DNA of 64,000 bases from Paucibacter sp. Y2R2-4 (GTDB lineage Bacteria; Pseudomonadota; Gammaproteobacteria; Burkholderiales; Burkholderiaceae_C): the NCBI RefSeq assembly GCF_025717535.1, contig NZ_JAJIRO010000005.1:186001-250000 (forward strand), given 5' to 3'. A program made the position numbers and the translations under genes. Numbering within the stretch: position 1 is the first letter of the stretch; each line of letters opens with the position of its first letter. Positions 1,943-14,214 of the stretch are shown one piece after another. Below the pieces are notes generated by a model, which worked only from the letters and a program-made list of their open reading frames with translations, did not search any database and was not told the DNA's origin.

Positions 1943-4036
1943 ATGAAACGCGGGCGTCGGAAGCATTCTTGTGTCGCTTTGGCAGCACCACTGCTGCTGG
2001 GCTTGTCAAACGAAGCGGCGCGAGCGGCTTCCTTGCTCGATCTGGATATCGACGCTTTGTCGCAGATCGAGGTGCGCAGTGCCACCGGCTTCAAGATGCC
2101 GGCCCGCGATGCGCCCGCAGTCGTGACGGTCTTGACGGCTGCTCAGATCGAAGCGCTTGGCGCACTGAGCCTAGAGGAGGCCTTGCAAGGCATTGTCGGC
2201 CTGCACATAACGCCCAAAAATCGCAACCCCAATTTTGTCATTCGGGGCGTCGCCACTTTTGACAACCCCGAAGTCTTGGTGACCCTGAACGATGTGCCCA
2301 TCAACCAGGTCTTGACCGGCGCTCTTGGGCTGGGCGTGCAACTGCCTTTGGCGGCGGTAGAGCGCATCGAGGTGGTGCGCGGGCCTGGCTCCGCCGTCTT
2401 TGGTGCGGACGCCTTCACCGGAGTGATCAATATCGTCACCCGCGATCCGATGCGGGAGCCTGAGACGGTGGCGGGCATGAATCTGGGGGCTTTTGGTGCT
2501 CGAGGCGCCTGGGTGCGCAGCAGTACCCGAGTGGCCGATTGGGGGCTGATGTTGAGCGCACAGACGCAGCGCAGTGATGGCGACCGGGGTCGCCGTGTTC
2601 AGGCGGATCAGCAGACCGAGTTCGACGCCATTTTTGGCAGCAAGGCCTCCTTGGCGCCGGGCAGTTTGGACACGCAATATCGGGTGAGCAACTTCCATGC
2701 GGAACTGTCCCGGCCCAACCTACAAGTCCGCCTGTGGCATTACCGTGCCGATCGTCTCGGCAATGCCTGGGGCGTGGGTGGTGCTTTAGACCCCACAGCC
2801 AGCACCGATGTGCGCCAAAGTCTGGGTGAATTGCGTTGGCAATTGCCGGGTAGCAGTGCCGAGCTGAGCTCCAGCTTGCGAGCCTCTTGGATGCATTTTT
2901 GGTTTGATGCCCAGTACAAAGTGTTTCCGCCCGGAACGACTTTGCCCGTTGATGAAGACGGAGTGTTGTTCGGCCCGGGCAAGTCTCGGTTGTTCACCTT
3001 CACCGAGGGCGCGATTGGCAACCCCGGATTGGTGGAGAACGACTATCGACTGGAGTGGGAGAGTAACTACGCAGGCTGGGACGGGCATCGCCTGCGCCTG
3101 GCCCTGGGTTTGAGTCAGCAAAACTTCCACGCTTGGGAGTCCAAGAATTTTTCTAATGGCGGGCCTGCGGGGATCTTGCGTGATGTGACGAACACCCCCT
3201 ATGTCTACGAGCCGGACCTGAGCCGGCGCAACCGCTACCTCTCGCTGCAAGATGTCTGGCATGTGAGCGAAGGCATCGACGTGACCTTGGGCGTTCGAGC
3301 TGATCACTACAACGACTTCGGCAGCAGCGTGAATCCGCGTGCATCCTTGGTCTGGCGGCATACGCCAAGCCTGAGCAGCAAATGGTTGTACGGCCAAGCT
3401 TTCCGCGCGCCTTCGATGAAGGAGCAGTATGTGGCCTCCAATCCGCTCAACCTGGGCTCCAAGTCGCTGCAGCCGGAGCGGGTGCAGACGCTTGAATGGC
3501 AAGGCGACTGGATCGTCGGCCCCAACTTCAGCACACGCTTGGCGGTTTTTCACAACCGTTTCAGTGAGCTGATTCGCTTGGTGTCCAAGGTTTACCGCAA
3601 TGTTGGCGAGTTGTCGGGGCCTGGTTTTGAGCTGGAGTTTGATTGGCGCGCCTTTGAGGCCTGCCGCTTTGCTCTCAACTACGCCTACCAACGCATTGCC
3701 GATGAGCACGGTCAGCCCGCGCCCTTGGCACCTCGCCAGACCTTGAATCTGATCGCTGAACAGCGGCTGTCGCCAGCCTTGAAGTTGAACGGTCAACTGC
3801 GCTGGGTGGGTGAGCGGCCACGTGAAGCGGGAGACATGCGCAGTGGCCTGCCGGCCTACCGTTTGTTGGACCTGGGGCTGCAATGGCAGCCGGCCGCCTC
3901 CGCTTGGTCTTGGCGATTGGGGCTGAGGAATGCCTTGGACGCCAAGGCCACCGAGCCGACTGACAGCAGCGCGCTGCAAGGGGACAACCCACTGGCGGGG
4001 CGCGAGTGGCGACTTGATTTCCGGATGGCTTTCTGA
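1943..4036 (+). CDS. TonB-dependent outer-membrane receptor
   Basis: A 22-stranded outer-membrane barrel with an N-terminal plug, probably energised by TonB; the ligand is unknown. The ATG at 1943 is preferred over the GTG at 1910 because GGAGAA lies just upstream and it gives a clean signal peptide (MKRGRRKHS, hydrophobic core, ending AARA-AS). The plug covers about residues 45-160 with VRGPGSAVFGADAFTGVINIV, the classic plug signature. The protein ends in Phe, as outer-membrane barrels do. At 697 residues it is in the size range of vitamin B12/colicin I-type receptors. It is the first gene of an apparent operon with a YfiR-like protein and a sensor kinase, so it may act in sensing rather than only in uptake. 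Confidence 0.88.
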   Translation: MKRGRRKHSCVALAAPLLLGLSNEAARAASLLDLDIDALSQIEVRSATGFKMPARDAPAVVTVLTAAQIEALGALSLEEALQGIVGLHITPKNRNPNFVIRGVATFDNPEVLVTLNDVPINQVLTGALGLGVQLPLAAVERIEVVRGPGSAVFGADAFTGVINIVTRDPMREPETVAGMNLGAFGARGAWVRSSTRVADWGLMLSAQTQRSDGDRGRRVQADQQTEFDAIFGSKASLAPGSLDTQYRVSNFHAELSRPNLQVRLWHYRADRLGNAWGVGGALDPTASTDVRQSLGELRWQLPGSSAELSSSLRASWMHFWFDAQYKVFPPGTTLPVDEDGVLFGPGKSRLFTFTEGAIGNPGLVENDYRLEWESNYAGWDGHRLRLALGLSQQNFHAWESKNFSNGGPAGILRDVTNTPYVYEPDLSRRNRYLSLQDVWHVSEGIDVTLGVRADHYNDFGSSVNPRASLVWRHTPSLSSKWLYGQAFRAPSMKEQYVASNPLNLGSKSLQPERVQTLEWQGDWIVGPNFSTRLAVFHNRFSELIRLVSKVYRNVGELSGPGFELEFDWRAFEACRFALNYAYQRIADEHGQPAPLAPRQTLNLIAEQRLSPALKLNGQLRWVGERPREAGDMRSGLPAYRLLDLGLQWQPAASAWSWRLGLRNALDAKATEPTDSSALQGDNPLAGREWRLDFRMAF

Positions 4037-4050
4037 GACAGCCCAAGCCT

Positions 4051-4626
4051 ATGACCGTGATTTCCTGGCTGGCGCATGGGTCGAAACGAGCTTTGCTGCT
4101 CGGGTGCTGTGGGCTCGTGTTTTTGAGCCCCTGGGCTCGGAGCTCGGACGCGAGCTTGGGCGAGTACCGCCTCAAGGCTGCCTACCTCTACCGTATCAGC
4201 CAGTTCATTGAATGGCCGGAGGCGGGTAAGCCGGAGCAGGCTTTCAATATTTGTGTGCTGGGCAGCGACCCATTCGGGGAAAGCCTGCGCGAATTGAGCA
4301 CCCGCACAGTGGCCTCGCGGCCGATTGCCCTGCAGTACCCGGCTACGCCTCGCGAGGCGCGGGCTTGTCAAATCGTCTATATCGATGAAGCGCAGAAGAA
4401 AGCGCTCAGCGACTTGGCTGCGGTGCTGGGCGACCTGCCGGTGCTGGTCGTCGGCGGTTCGCCGCAGTTCATCGACCAAGGGGGCGCGATCGGCTTTGTG
4501 GTCGAGGCGGGCAAGCTGCGTATGGAGCTCAATCTCGACGTCTTGCGGCGCGCCAACTTGAAGCCCAGTGCCAAGCTGATTGAAGTGGCAGTACGAACTG
4601 TCGGTTCGGGGCGGGGGCGGCCATGA
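4051..4626 (+). CDS. YfiR-like periplasmic protein (DUF4154)
   Basis: Secreted protein of the YfiR family. In Pseudomonas YfiR binds and represses the diguanylate cyclase YfiN in the periplasm and responds to redox state. Residues 1-32 look like a signal peptide. The mature part has EYRLKAAYLYRISQFIEWP, the typical family start, and NLDVLRRANLKPSAKL near the end. Cys68 and Cys106 fall where one YfiR disulfide pair would be. It lies 14 bases after the receptor gene and overlaps the kinase gene by ATGA, which strongly suggests that its partner is the kinase's periplasmic domain. The role as a regulator of that kinase is inference. Confidence 0.87.
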   Translation: MTVISWLAHGSKRALLLGCCGLVFLSPWARSSDASLGEYRLKAAYLYRISQFIEWPEAGKPEQAFNICVLGSDPFGESLRELSTRTVASRPIALQYPATPREARACQIVYIDEAQKKALSDLAAVLGDLPVLVVGGSPQFIDQGGAIGFVVEAGKLRMELNLDVLRRANLKPSAKLIEVAVRTVGSGRGRP

Positions 4627-6716
4627 AGCGTCTGGCGCAAATCCCAATCCGGCACTTCAGTGTGCTCTTGATCATGGCCGTGTGTTTGGGCAGTTTGCTG
4701 CTCTCCAGCCTGGTTCATGTTTGGTCCGAGGCGCGCAGCGCGCGCAGTGCTTTGGGGGATGAGTTGACCACCTTGGCAACGGTCTTGGCCAACCGCAGCA
4801 CGGCAGCGCTGGCCTTTGATGACGCCAAGACCGCCGCTGAGAACTTGTCAGCCTTGAAAGACGTTCGGCATGTCTTGCGTGCCTGCCTTTATGGCGAGCA
4901 AGGCGAGTTGTTTGCGAGTTATGTGCGGGCCTTGCCTCCACGATCTCCAGGGGCAGCGGCAGCATTGCCTGAGGCTGTTTCTCGCGCCTGTCAGATGCAG
5001 ATGCCTACGGGTGAGCAGACCTTGCTGTTCAGCGCTGATGGGGCACAGCTGCGTCAGCCGGTGCATGTGGACGATCAAAAGCGTGCCTGGCTTTTGATCG
5101 ATTCTTCCTTGGACGGCGTTCACGAACGCCTGCTGCAACAACTGCAGCTGCAAGGCGGCGTGCTCTTGGTGGCGACCCTGCTGGCGCTGGCGGCGGCATT
5201 GCGGCTGCAGCGCTTGATCTCGCAGCCAATCCAGCAACTCAGCCAAGTGGCCCAATCGATTGTCTCCACGCATGACTACGCCACCCGGGCGCAGCGCGGC
5301 GGACCCTTGGAGTTGGACGCCTTGTCGGCCTCTTTCAACCAGCTGATGCAGACCACCCAGCAGCAGCATGCGGAGCTGGAGTCGGCGCGAGTGATCGCTC
5401 AAGGCCGCTTTGAACAATTGCGCGACAGCGAGGCCTACAACAAGCTCTTGTTCCGAGAGAGCTGCATGGCGCAAGGCATTTTGGACCCGCAGACTCTGCG
5501 CTTTGTCGATTGCAATCGGGCTGCGCTCGAGCTGTTTGGCTTTGGCTTGCCCAGACAGTTGCTGGGTATGGCTCCGGCGGATGTGGCCCCGATACGCCAG
5601 CCCGACGGCAGTGCCTCGGGCGAACTGCTGGCGACACATTTGGCCGCCGCATTGAGCGGCGAGCGCTGCGTGTTTGAAATGCAACTCTTGCGCGAGCGGC
5701 CCGACTTGGGGCCGCTGCCTTGGGAAGCCGAACTGCACCTGGATCGCTTTGAGTCGGGGCTCAAGACGCTTTTGCAAATCAGCCTGATCGATGTCTCAGC
5801 GCGTGTCCAAGCTCAGCGTGAGCTGGAAGAGTTGAACCAGCAATTGGAGTCGCGCGTGGTGCGACGCACCGAGGCTTTGTCTGCCGCCAACAGCCAACTC
5901 AGCAGTGCCCTCGATGCTCTGCAAAACACCAAAGATGAGTTGGTGCGCAGCGAGCGCTTGGCGTCCCTCGGCGCCATGGTGGCCGGTGTGGCCCATGAGC
6001 TCAACACGCCAATTGGCAACAGCCTGGTGGTGGCATCAACGCTGCAAGAGCACAGCCTGGTGCTGCAGCGGGATATGGAAAGCGGTCAGATGCGCCGCTC
6101 CACCCTGAATACCTATCTGGACCTGGCACAAGAAAGCAGCGGCCTGTTGATGCGCAATTTGCAGCGCGCGGCCGAATTGGTCTCGCGCTTCAAGCAGGTG
6201 GCGGGCGACCAGTCGGGCGGGCAGCGGCAGCGCTTTGATCTGGCCGAGCTGCTGCAGCAGCTGACCGCGGCGCTGCAGCCTCAGTTTCTGGCAACACCGC
6301 ACCAGCTTTCCTGCCAGGTGCCCGAGGGCCTCCGCATGGACAGCCGCCCTGGCGCTTTGGAGCAGGTGCTGACGCAGTTGGTGATGAACACCTTGGTGCA
6401 TGCCCACTCCGCGAGTCGCGCCGGGCACACCAGGATCGAGGCTCATTTGAAAGACGGGGAGAGCGGTTTGCTGCAGCTGAGCGTCAGCGATGACGGTTGC
6501 GGCATTTCGCCCGAAGCCTTGCCACGCATTTTTGACCCTTTCTTCACCACTCGCATGGGCTCGGGCGGCAACGGCCTGGGGCTGCACACGGTTTTCAGTC
6601 TGGTCAACAAGTCGCTGGGCGGCCGCATCTCGGTGGAAAGTCAGCCCGGCCTGGGCAGCAAGTTCCTGCTGGAGATCCCGTGCATCGCCCCACGCGGCTT
6701 GGATGAAAAGCTGTGA
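4623..6716 (+). CDS. Membrane sensor histidine kinase with CHASE8-like, HAMP and PAS domains
   Basis: Inner-membrane kinase. Domains in order: transmembrane segment about 12-33; periplasmic region about 35-175 resembling CHASE8, the sensor domain of YfiN (it includes STAALAFDDAKTA); second transmembrane segment about 176-196; HAMP about 197-245; PAS about 265-385; coiled coil about 395-445; phosphorylation box with His458 in AHELNTPIG; and an ATPase domain with DDGCGI, FFTTR and GNGLGLH. It has no receiver domain, and no response regulator gene is adjacent. The ATG overlaps the yfiR-like stop. The pairing of YfiR with a CHASE8-type kinase, instead of a diguanylate cyclase, is unusual. Confidence 0.88.
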   Translation: MKRLAQIPIRHFSVLLIMAVCLGSLLLSSLVHVWSEARSARSALGDELTTLATVLANRSTAALAFDDAKTAAENLSALKDVRHVLRACLYGEQGELFASYVRALPPRSPGAAAALPEAVSRACQMQMPTGEQTLLFSADGAQLRQPVHVDDQKRAWLLIDSSLDGVHERLLQQLQLQGGVLLVATLLALAAALRLQRLISQPIQQLSQVAQSIVSTHDYATRAQRGGPLELDALSASFNQLMQTTQQQHAELESARVIAQGRFEQLRDSEAYNKLLFRESCMAQGILDPQTLRFVDCNRAALELFGFGLPRQLLGMAPADVAPIRQPDGSASGELLATHLAAALSGERCVFEMQLLRERPDLGPLPWEAELHLDRFESGLKTLLQISLIDVSARVQAQRELEELNQQLESRVVRRTEALSAANSQLSSALDALQNTKDELVRSERLASLGAMVAGVAHELNTPIGNSLVVASTLQEHSLVLQRDMESGQMRRSTLNTYLDLAQESSGLLMRNLQRAAELVSRFKQVAGDQSGGQRQRFDLAELLQQLTAALQPQFLATPHQLSCQVPEGLRMDSRPGALEQVLTQLVMNTLVHAHSASRAGHTRIEAHLKDGESGLLQLSVSDDGCGISPEALPRIFDPFFTTRMGSGGNGLGLHTVFSLVNKSLGGRISVESQPGLGSKFLLEIPCIAPRGLDEKL

Positions 6717-12175: not shown

Positions 12176-13057
12176 TTACAGGCCCTTGAACAAGGGCGCG
12201 TACAGGCGGCTGACGGCGATGCGCTCGGGGCTGCCGTGCAGGTGCAAGGTGACTTTGCCAGTTTCATCGCGGATCACGCGGTCGATGGCGTCTGATCGCA
12301 CGATGACGCTGCGATGCACCTGCCAGAAGCGTTGCGTATCCAGTTGCGGCAGCAACTCACGCAGTGAGATGCGCACCAGATGCTCTTTGCTGGCGGTCAG
12401 CACGCGCACGTATTTGTCCGCGGCCTCGAAGTACAAGACCTCATCGACCGGCACCATATGGATGGTATTGCCCAAACCAACTTGCAGCAGTCGCAGTGGT
12501 GGTGCGGGTCGGGCAGTTAATGCGTTGGCCCCGGAGGCCGTATTGGCTGCGTTGCTACCGGGCTCGCCGATGGCGGTGCCCAGCAATTGGCGCAGCTGTT
12601 GGATGGCCAACTCCAATGAGGCGGGCTCAGCGACTTGCGGTGCAGGCGGGTTTGTATGACCGGCGCTCTGACGTAAAGCCAGGGCCTTCTTCAAGCGCTC
12701 GCAAGTTTGCGCCAGACGCTCGCTTTGCACTGGCTTGAGTACATAGTCGATGGCCGAACGCTCAAACGCTTGTACTGCGTACTGGTCATAAGCGGTCACA
12801 AAGACCAGCAAGGGGAAGGGCTGGTCGGCGGGCCAGTCTTCGGCCATGGCGGCAGCGGCCTCCAGACCTGTCATGCCTGGCATGCGAATGTCCAAGAAGC
12901 ACACATCAGGGTGCTTTTGCAGGGCCGCATCGACGGCCGCTTGGCCATGCGCAGCCATGCTCACGATGTGCAGCTCCGGCCACAGTCGCGCCAACTCTTG
13001 GCGCAGGTTCTCGGCCAACAAGGCCTCGTCTTCGGCGATCAGGGCGGTATGTTTCAT
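12176..13057 (-). CDS. LytTR-family response regulator
   Basis: A two-domain regulator. The N-terminal receiver domain has the acidic pair ED at 9-10, the phosphorylation site Asp56 in FLDIRMPG, and VLKPV for the conserved Lys. After a linker of about 60 residues with poor complexity, the C-terminal LytTR DNA-binding domain (about 190-293) has VDEVLYFEAADKYVRV and RFWQVHRSVIV. It overlaps the upstream kinase gene by ATGA, so the two form one system. Its targets cannot be read from sequence; the adjacent MipA/OmpV gene is a plausible one. Confidence 0.92.
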   Translation of the reverse strand: MKHTALIAEDEALLAENLRQELARLWPELHIVSMAAHGQAAVDAALQKHPDVCFLDIRMPGMTGLEAAAAMAEDWPADQPFPLLVFVTAYDQYAVQAFERSAIDYVLKPVQSERLAQTCERLKKALALRQSAGHTNPPAPQVAEPASLELAIQQLRQLLGTAIGEPGSNAANTASGANALTARPAPPLRLLQVGLGNTIHMVPVDEVLYFEAADKYVRVLTASKEHLVRISLRELLPQLDTQRFWQVHRSVIVRSDAIDRVIRDETGKVTLHLHGSPERIAVSRLYAPLFKGL

Positions 13058-14214
13058 GGGTTCTGAATCGGGATGAGGATTCGCGCCAGCGTGCCGCCTT
13101 GTGGCGCTGGTGAAATGCTCAGGCTGGCCTGTGAGCCGTATTGCGTGGCCAGGCGCTCGCGCACCTGGTGCAGGCCAAAGTGCGTGCCTGATTCGGCGCC
13201 GGGGGGGAGCTCATCAGCGGTGCGGGTGTCTGGACTTGCACTTGAGTTGATGCCGATGCCGATACCGGTGTCCAGCACGTCGAGTTGCAAATGGCTGCCC
13301 ATGCGCAGGGCGCGGACACTAAGCTCGCCGCCGTCAATGGCCGGCTCCAGGCCATGCTTGATAGCGTTCTCTACCAGGGGCTGAAGTAGTAGCGGCGCAA
13401 TGGGGAACTCGGCCAGTTCGGCCGGCAGCTCCAAGCTGGGCCGCAGTCTCTGGCCCATGCGGATTTGCATCAACGCCAAATAGTCGCGCAAGCGCTCGAA
13501 CTCGTCGCGCAAAGGGTGGCTCTCGGCGCGCGAGGCGGTGAGGGTGGCGCGCAGATAGGCGATCAGCTGGTCCAGCATGTGCTGGGCTCGCGCCGGGTCC
13601 ATGCCGATCAGAACCCGCAAATTGGCCAAGGTGTTGAACAGCATATGGGGCTCGAGCTGCGATTGCAGCAGGCGCAACTGGTTCTCGGCGGCAGAGCGTT
13701 GGGCCTTCAGGGCGAGCGCATGGGCTGCCTCGACGCGGCCTCGGCCGACAAAGTACAAGGTGACGGCAACGCCAGGAATCAGCGAAATCACCAAAATCAC
13801 CAGACCTTGGCGCAGGCTCACATCAACCAGCCCTACGTTTTGATGCCCGCTGATCCAATTGGCCAGCGCATTGCCCAGGCTGTAGCCCAAGAGCGTACCC
13901 ACGATCAGGCAAGCGCTTTGCAAAGGCCATCCCAACCAAATCCGCGGCTCCGTATGGGCTGGAAGCGATCGGTTGAGCCCATAGAGCATGAGCTGACTCA
14001 GGCCCTGAATGATCAGTGAGCAGCAGCAACTGATCACAAAGGTGTAGAGCAAGCTTTGACCGGTCGGTTGGCCAAACACCAGGGTCTCTAGCGCGGTGAA
14101 GACCGCGGTGATCACCAAGACGATGCGCAACTGAGAAAACGCGCGTTGCCGCAAGCTGGGCGCTGCCTTAGGCGCCAATCGGTCAAGTGCTACTGCGCTC
14201 GGGGATGGTTTCAT
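13054..14214 (-). CDS. LytS/YehU-type sensor histidine kinase
   Basis: Membrane kinase of the His_kinase type. Four hydrophobic segments occupy about residues 30-160. They are followed by a linker and the phosphorylation box QLEPHMLFNTLANLR, then the N-box PLVENAIKHGLEPA and the G-box DTGIGIG. It has no periplasmic ligand-binding domain, so sensing would be within the membrane or by partner contact. The gene precedes and overlaps its LytTR regulator by four bases. A glycine/serine-rich insert sits between the G1 and G2 boxes. Confidence 0.9.
   Translation of the reverse strand: MKPSPSAVALDRLAPKAAPSLRQRAFSQLRIVLVITAVFTALETLVFGQPTGQSLLYTFVISCCCSLIIQGLSQLMLYGLNRSLPAHTEPRIWLGWPLQSACLIVGTLLGYSLGNALANWISGHQNVGLVDVSLRQGLVILVISLIPGVAVTLYFVGRGRVEAAHALALKAQRSAAENQLRLLQSQLEPHMLFNTLANLRVLIGMDPARAQHMLDQLIAYLRATLTASRAESHPLRDEFERLRDYLALMQIRMGQRLRPSLELPAELAEFPIAPLLLQPLVENAIKHGLEPAIDGGELSVRALRMGSHLQLDVLDTGIGIGINSSASPDTRTADELPPGAESGTHFGLHQVRERLATQYGSQASLSISPAPQGGTLARILIPIQNP

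Follow-up and report, generated by a model that had tools for sequence, protein, structure and literature searches.

The closest described relative of the locus studied here is the YfiBNR (TpbB/DgcN) system of Pseudomonas aeruginosa, in which the DUF4154 protein YfiR is combined with YfiN, a transducer with a GGDEF output, and with the OmpA/Pal-like lipoprotein YfiB (PMC3375315; PMC4655355). Histidine kinase, Hpt, GGDEF-EAL and methyl-accepting chemotaxis protein (MCP) outputs have also been described for YfiN-like proteins with YfiR, mostly without yfiB, and the signal input and outer partner of such YfiB-less YfiNR systems were left open (Malone et al., 2012; PMC3375315). Here we analysed three genes of Paucibacter sp. 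Y2R2-4 located in a stretch of 64,000 nucleotides (contig NZ_JAJIRO010000005.1, positions 186,001 to 250,000), hereafter the window. A receptor, a YfiR-like protein and a kinase are encoded in one tight operon, and the coordinates given in the original prediction, which was made from the window alone, are exact:

1943..4036, + strand: gene for a TonB-dependent receptor (TBDR) of 697 amino acids, ATG at 1943, stop at 4036
4051..4626, + strand: gene for a YfiR-like periplasmic protein of 191 amino acids (DUF4154)
4623..6716, + strand: gene for a membrane histidine kinase of 697 amino acids, ATG at 4623, stop at 6716, in the order transmembrane (TM) helix, periplasmic CHASE8, TM helix, HAMP, PAS, HisKA-like, HATPase

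The receptor and YfiR-like genes are spaced by 14 bases, and the YfiR-like and kinase genes share an ATGA overlap at 4623. In common with YfiBNR are the YfiR/DUF4154 protein, a CHASE8/PAS-HAMP transducer, an AAxxF patch, the counterparts of Cys71 and Cys110 and an operon-encoded outer-membrane partner (PMC3375315; PMC4655355). In contrast to YfiBNR, the output is a HATPase_c kinase instead of GGDEF, and a TBDR is found in place of YfiB, with no OmpA label within 7 kb of the window set. Moreover, the YfiR-like protein lacks the Cys145-Cys152 disulfide and carries Ile and Met where YfiR has Phe151 and Phe162. Sequence and context give good support to the original proposal of a YfiNR-like system that has a kinase for its output and a TonB receptor for its outer partner.

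We consider it probable that the operon encodes a YfiR-family module linking the outer to the inner membrane, in which the TBDR stands for YfiB, the histidine kinase stands for YfiN, and YfiR relays the state of the receptor. The best supported arrangement, by analogy, would have YfiR as a bridge between receptor and CHASE8, as between YfiB and YfiN; from the genetics and structures of YfiBNR we infer that YfiR would bind CHASE8, act as a repressor and be sequestered by the outer-membrane partner. Free YfiR would thus bind the AALAF patch in the periplasmic CHASE8 domain of the kinase and hold the kinase in one signalling state. In the ligand-bound, TonB-engaged receptor, an N-terminal motif (LDLDIDALSQIEV) beside the TonB box would become available or shift, and would capture YfiR at the outer membrane. 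CHASE8 would then be released, and autophosphorylation of the kinase would change towards an unlinked response regulator.

The partners of YfiR were compared across 239 YfiR open reading frames (ORFs), taken from the own genome (4), an order-level set (92), named GTDB contigs (84) and a phylum-level set (59). The order set was recruited with P0002 and NF053591, and the named set (283 pattern matches, 265 relatives, the best 80 kept as 75 loci) with TBDR-linked YfiRs, while the phylum set came from a PF13689 search over 299 genomes, 70 of which had a match, giving 60 new stretches after within-genus repeats were trimmed, one of them (L285) without a YfiR ORF. The sets overlap by at least one locus, that of Derxia gummosa (L147 and L171). 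Domains at the loci were labelled with home-built hidden Markov models, and the labels of 8 proteins, 47 CHASE8 regions and 37 receptors were checked against Pfam. A TBDR was located beside YfiR or its transducer in 183 cases and an OmpA-type YfiB in 22, both together in 0 and neither in 34; in 8 of these 34 a TBDR occurs farther away, within 7 kb. The corresponding numbers for the phylum set, the least biased of the four, were 41, 7, 0 and 11. The exclusion holds to 7 kb except at one locus, where an OmpA-like gene is found at a distance of 5.4 kb on the opposite strand.

The choice of partner is also reflected in YfiR itself. The window protein matches the YfiR/HmsC-like DUF4154 profile of Pfam with 139.6 bits (cut-off 24.9), and a sequence search of the PDB with it found YfiR (best E-value 0.0033). 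Its relevant features are:

4165-4590, + strand: DUF4154 domain, residues 39-180 (Pfam PF13689, E 1e-40)
4252..4254, + strand: Cys68, equivalent to YfiR Cys71 (alignment with P. aeruginosa YfiR)
4366..4368, + strand: Cys106, equivalent to YfiR Cys110 (same alignment)

In YfiR, Cys71 and Cys110 form the redox-labile pair and Cys145-Cys152 is the pair essential for folding (PMC4655355). The disulfide cysteines recognised in the original prediction therefore correspond to the redox-labile pair, whereas the folding pair is absent from the window protein, which has Ile and Gly at the aligned columns. Among the YfiRs compared (one of the 239, with a domain match shorter than 100 residues, was left out), Cys71 and Cys110 are both present in 160 of 182 TBDR-linked, 22 of 22 OmpA-linked and 21 of 34 neither-partner proteins. 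Cys145 and Cys152, on the other hand, are found in 21/22 OmpA-linked and 0/182 TBDR-linked YfiRs, and in 1/34 of those with neither partner, this one belonging to a GGDEF locus. Position 151 is Phe in 20 of the 22 OmpA-linked YfiRs and Ile, Leu or Val in 179 of the 182 linked to a TBDR. YfiB contacts YfiR at Glu144 and Ser146, beside the second disulfide, and Phe151 floors the pocket entered by YfiB Met59 (PMC4655355). Since both Cys145/Cys152 and position 151 follow the partner, the YfiB-facing side of YfiR changes with it. In a tree of 126 YfiRs (37 of 162 were left out as at least 70% identical) there were 2 partner changes, one of them at a long branch (L167), versus 11 output changes, the latter by a parsimony count in which starred branches force at most one change per group. 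Taken together, the exclusion and the partner-specific marks indicate that the TBDR holds the place of YfiB and that the output, whether kinase, diguanylate cyclase or MCP, is exchangeable.

A second mark is found in the receptor, where a 13-residue motif precedes the TonB box in YfiR-linked TBDRs (consensus TDLSLEQLMNIEV). The features of the window receptor are:

2036..2074, + strand: motif LDLDIDALSQIEV at residues 32-44, immediately ahead of the TonB box and plug; putative YfiR-contact motif, located by position weight matrix (PWM) score
2102-2425, + strand: Plug domain, residues 54-161 (Pfam PF07715, E 6e-21)
2759-3931, + strand: TonB barrel, residues 273-663 (Pfam PF00593, E 3e-33)

Pfam found only plug and barrel in this receptor up to E 10, with no STN signalling domain. 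In the AlphaFold2 model of the receptor (mean predicted local distance difference test, pLDDT, 81.6), residues 36-40 form a short helix, with pLDDT 77 for residues 31-40 and 87 for residues 41-50. A strict form of the motif, drawn by eye from the receptors of the own genome and the order set, selected the 38 rows (35 unique) on which the PWM was trained; it was met by 2/3 receptors of the own genome, 36/61 of the order set, 49/63 of the named set, 10/36 of the phylum set and 1/26 controls, that one being YfiR-linked. Incomplete receptors (20 of the 183 linked ones) were left out. Controls came from 50 receptor loci (20 of the own genome, 30 further), 26 of which had a labelled receptor ORF of more than 450 amino acids; removing 3 YfiR-linked receptors, which scored 13.1, 32.2 and 5.2 with the PWM, left 23. 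The window receptor, itself a training row, scored 25.1 bits compared to at most 6.3 in these controls, shuffled sequences reached at most 8.3, and 94 of 99 held-out YfiR-linked receptors outscored the best control. No held-out row entered the PWM, and the strict-pattern misses of the named and phylum sets were known before it was built.

The motif also follows YfiR across genomes. A 54-column model including the motif, built from YfiR-linked receptors of which some came from the genomes searched, was run on 13 genomes. It gave 32 hits covering the motif, 31 of them within 6 kb of YfiR; of 30 weaker hits that miss the motif, 6 were also near YfiR. In 150 genomes, with at most 44 candidates scored in each so that larger genomes were partly covered, 40 of 45 motif-covering hits were within 6 kb of YfiR, and YfiR was present in 24/26 motif-bearing but only 7/124 motif-free genomes. 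These seven comprise three with an OmpA-type partner (G072, G132, G167), three with neither partner (G063, G073, G090) and one with a missed linked receptor (G113). Three motif-bearing receptors distant from YfiR (G049:C1:1819778, G174:C6:43592 and G145:C7:107361) may be partners in trans, because the same genomes hold YfiR loci without an adjacent receptor (L169, L141 and L145). At eight loci of Nitrosomonas and related bacteria (L187, L193, L194, L200, L203, L205, L212 and L213), at least two tandem TBDR genes accompany a single YfiR gene or a pair of them; several of these loci (e.g., L194, L200, L212) have a receptor in pieces, as if broken.

TBDRs are usually importers, and the window receptor is a full one with plug and barrel. 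It could therefore be that the receptor only imports a ligand, which YfiR binds in the manner of a solute-binding protein and reports to CHASE8, with no contact between receptor and YfiR. The fold of YfiR, which resembles an ABC-type binding domain with a Dali Z-score of 11.4 (PMC4655355), fits such a role. However, the TBDR replaces YfiB, a known YfiR-binding protein of the outer membrane, with near-complete exclusion, and the receptor motif, which tracks linkage to YfiR, would serve no purpose in import alone. We hence regard this explanation as unlikely, although it is the main rival to a relay through receptor contact.

The outputs bear on another explanation. A CHASE8 kinase accompanies 129 of the YfiR ORFs, 106 with a TBDR, 0 with OmpA and 23 with neither, and GGDEF outputs are divided into 34 with a TBDR, 22 with OmpA and 3 with neither. 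Iron-uptake operons often combine receptor genes with regulator genes, and in the window the kinase and the receptor share one operon; the kinase might thus regulate the receptor gene while YfiR senses the state of the envelope independently, the linkage reflecting co-regulation only. Such a feedback pair is improbable, since TBDR linkage persists with a diguanylate cyclase (34 loci) or an MCP (1 locus) as output, neither of which involves direct promoter control, and since the TBDR takes the place of YfiB. The MCP locus (L142:6572-8344) encodes a chemoreceptor with Pfam-confirmed CHASE8 and MCP domains directly after TBDR and YfiR genes. At L082:6796-8409 a gene in the same position appears MCP-like by eye and has no CHASE8 label. 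At L169:4042-6636, YfiR, HisKA, HATPase and receiver domains are joined in a single protein that has no CHASE8 match, and here YfiR would seem to belong to the kinase itself.

TBDR-YfiR-kinase sets were found in 23 of the 40 GTDB families with YfiR loci examined (families counted as family codes), among others in Nitrosomonas, Nitrospira, Polaromonas and Derxia, with cyclase sets in, e.g., Methylotenera and Massilia. Plug matches numbered only 3-43 per genome in the ten genomes counted, and the three-gene set is therefore beyond chance; the joint conservation in relatives on which the original prediction depended was thus borne out. A single cassette unique to this genome was ruled out by the same distribution. 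The block does occupy one chromosomal site within the genus, yet that the three genes were merely kept together in one lineage is hardly credible given the 23 of 40 families, the partner-specific residues and a gene order that varies with the same set, the receptor following the kinase in L263, L268, L269, L276 and L302 (one family code).

Within the genus, a close orthologue of the window YfiR (64-72% identity) was present in only 3 of 17 other genomes, and no further one was detected elsewhere in the genus genomes searched. The block adjoins yciH in 4 of 18 genus genomes, with a DEAD-box helicase gene downstream in all four; in 7/18, yciH is followed directly by the helicase gene without the block, and the remaining 7/18 show other arrangements within the flank in view. 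Four DUF4154 genes are present in the own genome. Besides that of the window, one belongs to a further TBDR-YfiR-hybrid kinase set with a response regulator gene behind it (L015), one to a CHASE8-GGDEF/TBDR/YfiR set (L016) and one to a classical YfiR/CHASE8-GGDEF/OmpA set (L017). A YfiNR system rewired to a kinase and a TBDR, as first described for the window, is thus present, but it is a widespread module with three further YfiR sets in the same genome and not a one-off. Among the 34 receptor stretches listed in the own genome with the NCBIfam model NF053590, the best three are the three YfiR-linked receptors.

The kinase carries the following features:

4746..4940, + strand: CHASE8 match in the periplasmic part, residues 42-106 (Pfam E 3.4e-14, 53.4 bits, cut-off 27)
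4803..4817, + strand: AALAF, residues 61-65, counterpart by sequence position of the YfiN AAVVF motif
5205..5360, + strand: HAMP domain (Pfam)
5496..5741, + strand: cytoplasmic PAS domain (PAS_4, 23.6 bits, cut-off 23.1)
5967..6680, + strand: kinase core, HisKA-like at 5967-6098 and HATPase_c at 6354-6680 (Pfam)

The predicted CHASE8 sensor was confirmed by the Pfam profile, the match spanning positions 3-67 of 102 and leaving the C-terminal third of the profile unmatched. Of 47 regions in a CHASE8 alignment that includes the window, 46 match Pfam CHASE8, and F65 and D67 are kept in at least 90% of the 47. The AALAF of the window kinase appears to be of the same type as the AAVVF motif of YfiN, which is thought to be the YfiR-binding site (PMC3375315), and is a putative YfiR-binding patch. 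In the kinase core, HATPase_c is clear (E 8e-22, 78.1 bits) while HisKA is below cut-off (20.6 versus 26.9), and the phospho-acceptor His458 (HELNTPIG), the N box at 585, G1 at 623 and G2 at 649 are present. In two of the four orthologous kinases, HAMP and PAS are separated by some 170 additional residues. The N-terminal part was modelled as a TM helix, a PAS/CACHE-like domain and a TM helix (mean pLDDT 88.3). The top fold match of this sensor model in the PDB was an integrative WalK-YycH model (Z 15.9), and the best matches among crystal structures were extracytoplasmic PAS domains of WalK (Z 12.7) and CitA (11.4). YfiN has been compared with the CitA domain (PMC3375315), and CHASE8 is assigned to a CACHE-like clan (PMC8846402), although a PAS fold in common shows no function. 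No solved periplasmic domain of YfiN was among the 50 fold matches listed for either search, which is no proof of absence, and a PDB sequence search with the kinase sensor gave nothing useful.

Same-orientation REC-GGDEF genes within about 7 kb were found at 28/90 TBDR-hybrid-kinase loci and 2/16 TBDR-kinase loci, which suggests a possible return to cyclic di-GMP (c-di-GMP). In Ectothiorhodospira (L188, L189, L191, L202 and L215), YfiR, a hybrid kinase and a REC-GGDEF regulator lie in a row with no TBDR in view. The only two-component pair recognised among the ORFs of the window's first 14 kb, which were assigned by eye, is an unrelated LytT-type response regulator and LytS-type kinase at 12176-14214 on the minus strand.

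Several observations weigh against a relay from TBDR through YfiR to CHASE8. In the 150 genomes, five of the 45 motif-covering hits are not beside YfiR, including two for which the genome has no YfiR at all, and in G113, a YfiR genome, the linked receptor gave no motif hit. The strict motif form, drawn by eye, falls from 49 of 63 receptors in the named set to only 10 of 36 in the phylum set, and the motif could mark a receptor subfamily instead of a contact. The window YfiR has Met at the conserved Phe162, a position that is Phe in 160 of 182 TBDR-linked YfiRs, and the strict AAxxF-type pattern occurs in only 65/128 kinases and 37/60 cyclases. No response regulator gene adjoins the window kinase, nor any of its three close orthologues. 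Neither partner accompanies 23 of the 129 kinase-output YfiR ORFs, of which only 3 lie within 1.5 kb of the end of a stretch, and for 40 YfiRs linked to a TBDR no CHASE8 gene is in view; the Nitrosomonas-rich named set contributes 22 of these. In favour of the relay, distance correlations over 80 loci linked YfiR to CHASE8 (0.40) more strongly than CHASE8 to its own HATPase (0.19), but YfiR also tracks HATPase (0.34) and the receptor barrel (0.34), and operon co-inheritance therefore accounts for part of the correlation; with co-inheritance partly controlled, this evidence is supportive but weak.

The relay through YfiR may be compared with what has been published. Kinase outputs on YfiR systems have been in print since 2012 (PMC3375315), together with frequent loss of yfiB, and the triple has been named by NCBI curators, so that the new sensing route claimed in the original prediction is novel in part: within the literature searched, the TBDR at the YfiB position appears to be new, as do the cysteine mark and the receptor motif. 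The divergent YfiNR pairs of Malone et al. (2012) share the kinase output and the loss of yfiB, and TonB has 0 mentions in the main text of that paper (PMC3375315). Judged by titles and the starts of abstracts in the library searched, no paper on YfiR and a TonB receptor as one system was found, and at that level papers holding both words showed no such link (PMC9611778, PMC8959810, PMC12485182 and PMC8228696 for YfiR; PMC5445275 and PMC12153312 for YfiN). The NCBIfam models (release 20) NF053590, NF053591 and NF053592, for the TOL_0244 receptor, the TOL_0243 YfiR-like protein and a YfiR-associated sensor kinase, describe the same gene set. NF053591 and NF053592 rank best for the window YfiR-like protein and kinase, and NF053590 third best for the receptor, but all three proteins are below the curated cut-offs (receptor 108.9/645, YfiR-like protein 117.3/125, kinase 139.1/194), the window thus holding a more distant set. 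The TBDR is hence a strong candidate for the partner missing in YfiB-less YfiNR systems, with residue-level marks that follow the swap, and the receptor motif offers a directly testable contact. If true, ligand binding at the outer membrane would be coupled to phosphorelays, c-di-GMP or chemotaxis via one exchangeable periplasmic adaptor.

Two other known systems would work alike in part. WalK, which tops the fold matches of the kinase sensor, has its extracytoplasmic PAS domain controlled by the accessory proteins YycH and YycI, which come from other families than YfiR, and does so without an outer membrane or TBDR. In the FecA-FecR-FecI TonB-dependent transducers, the N-terminus of a TBDR likewise passes the signal inward; FecA, however, uses an STN domain, an anti-sigma and a sigma factor, whereas in the window receptor no STN was found and the relay would run via YfiR to a histidine kinase. 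It is possible, if still short of probable, that there is a class of TBDRs with a dedicated YfiR-binding handle of about 13 residues (TDLSLEQLMNIEV) next to the TonB box, in which movement of the plug N-terminus upon ligand binding and TonB engagement gates a periplasmic repressor and thereby switches kinases, diguanylate cyclases or chemoreceptors, a second general TBDR route beside FecA-FecR.

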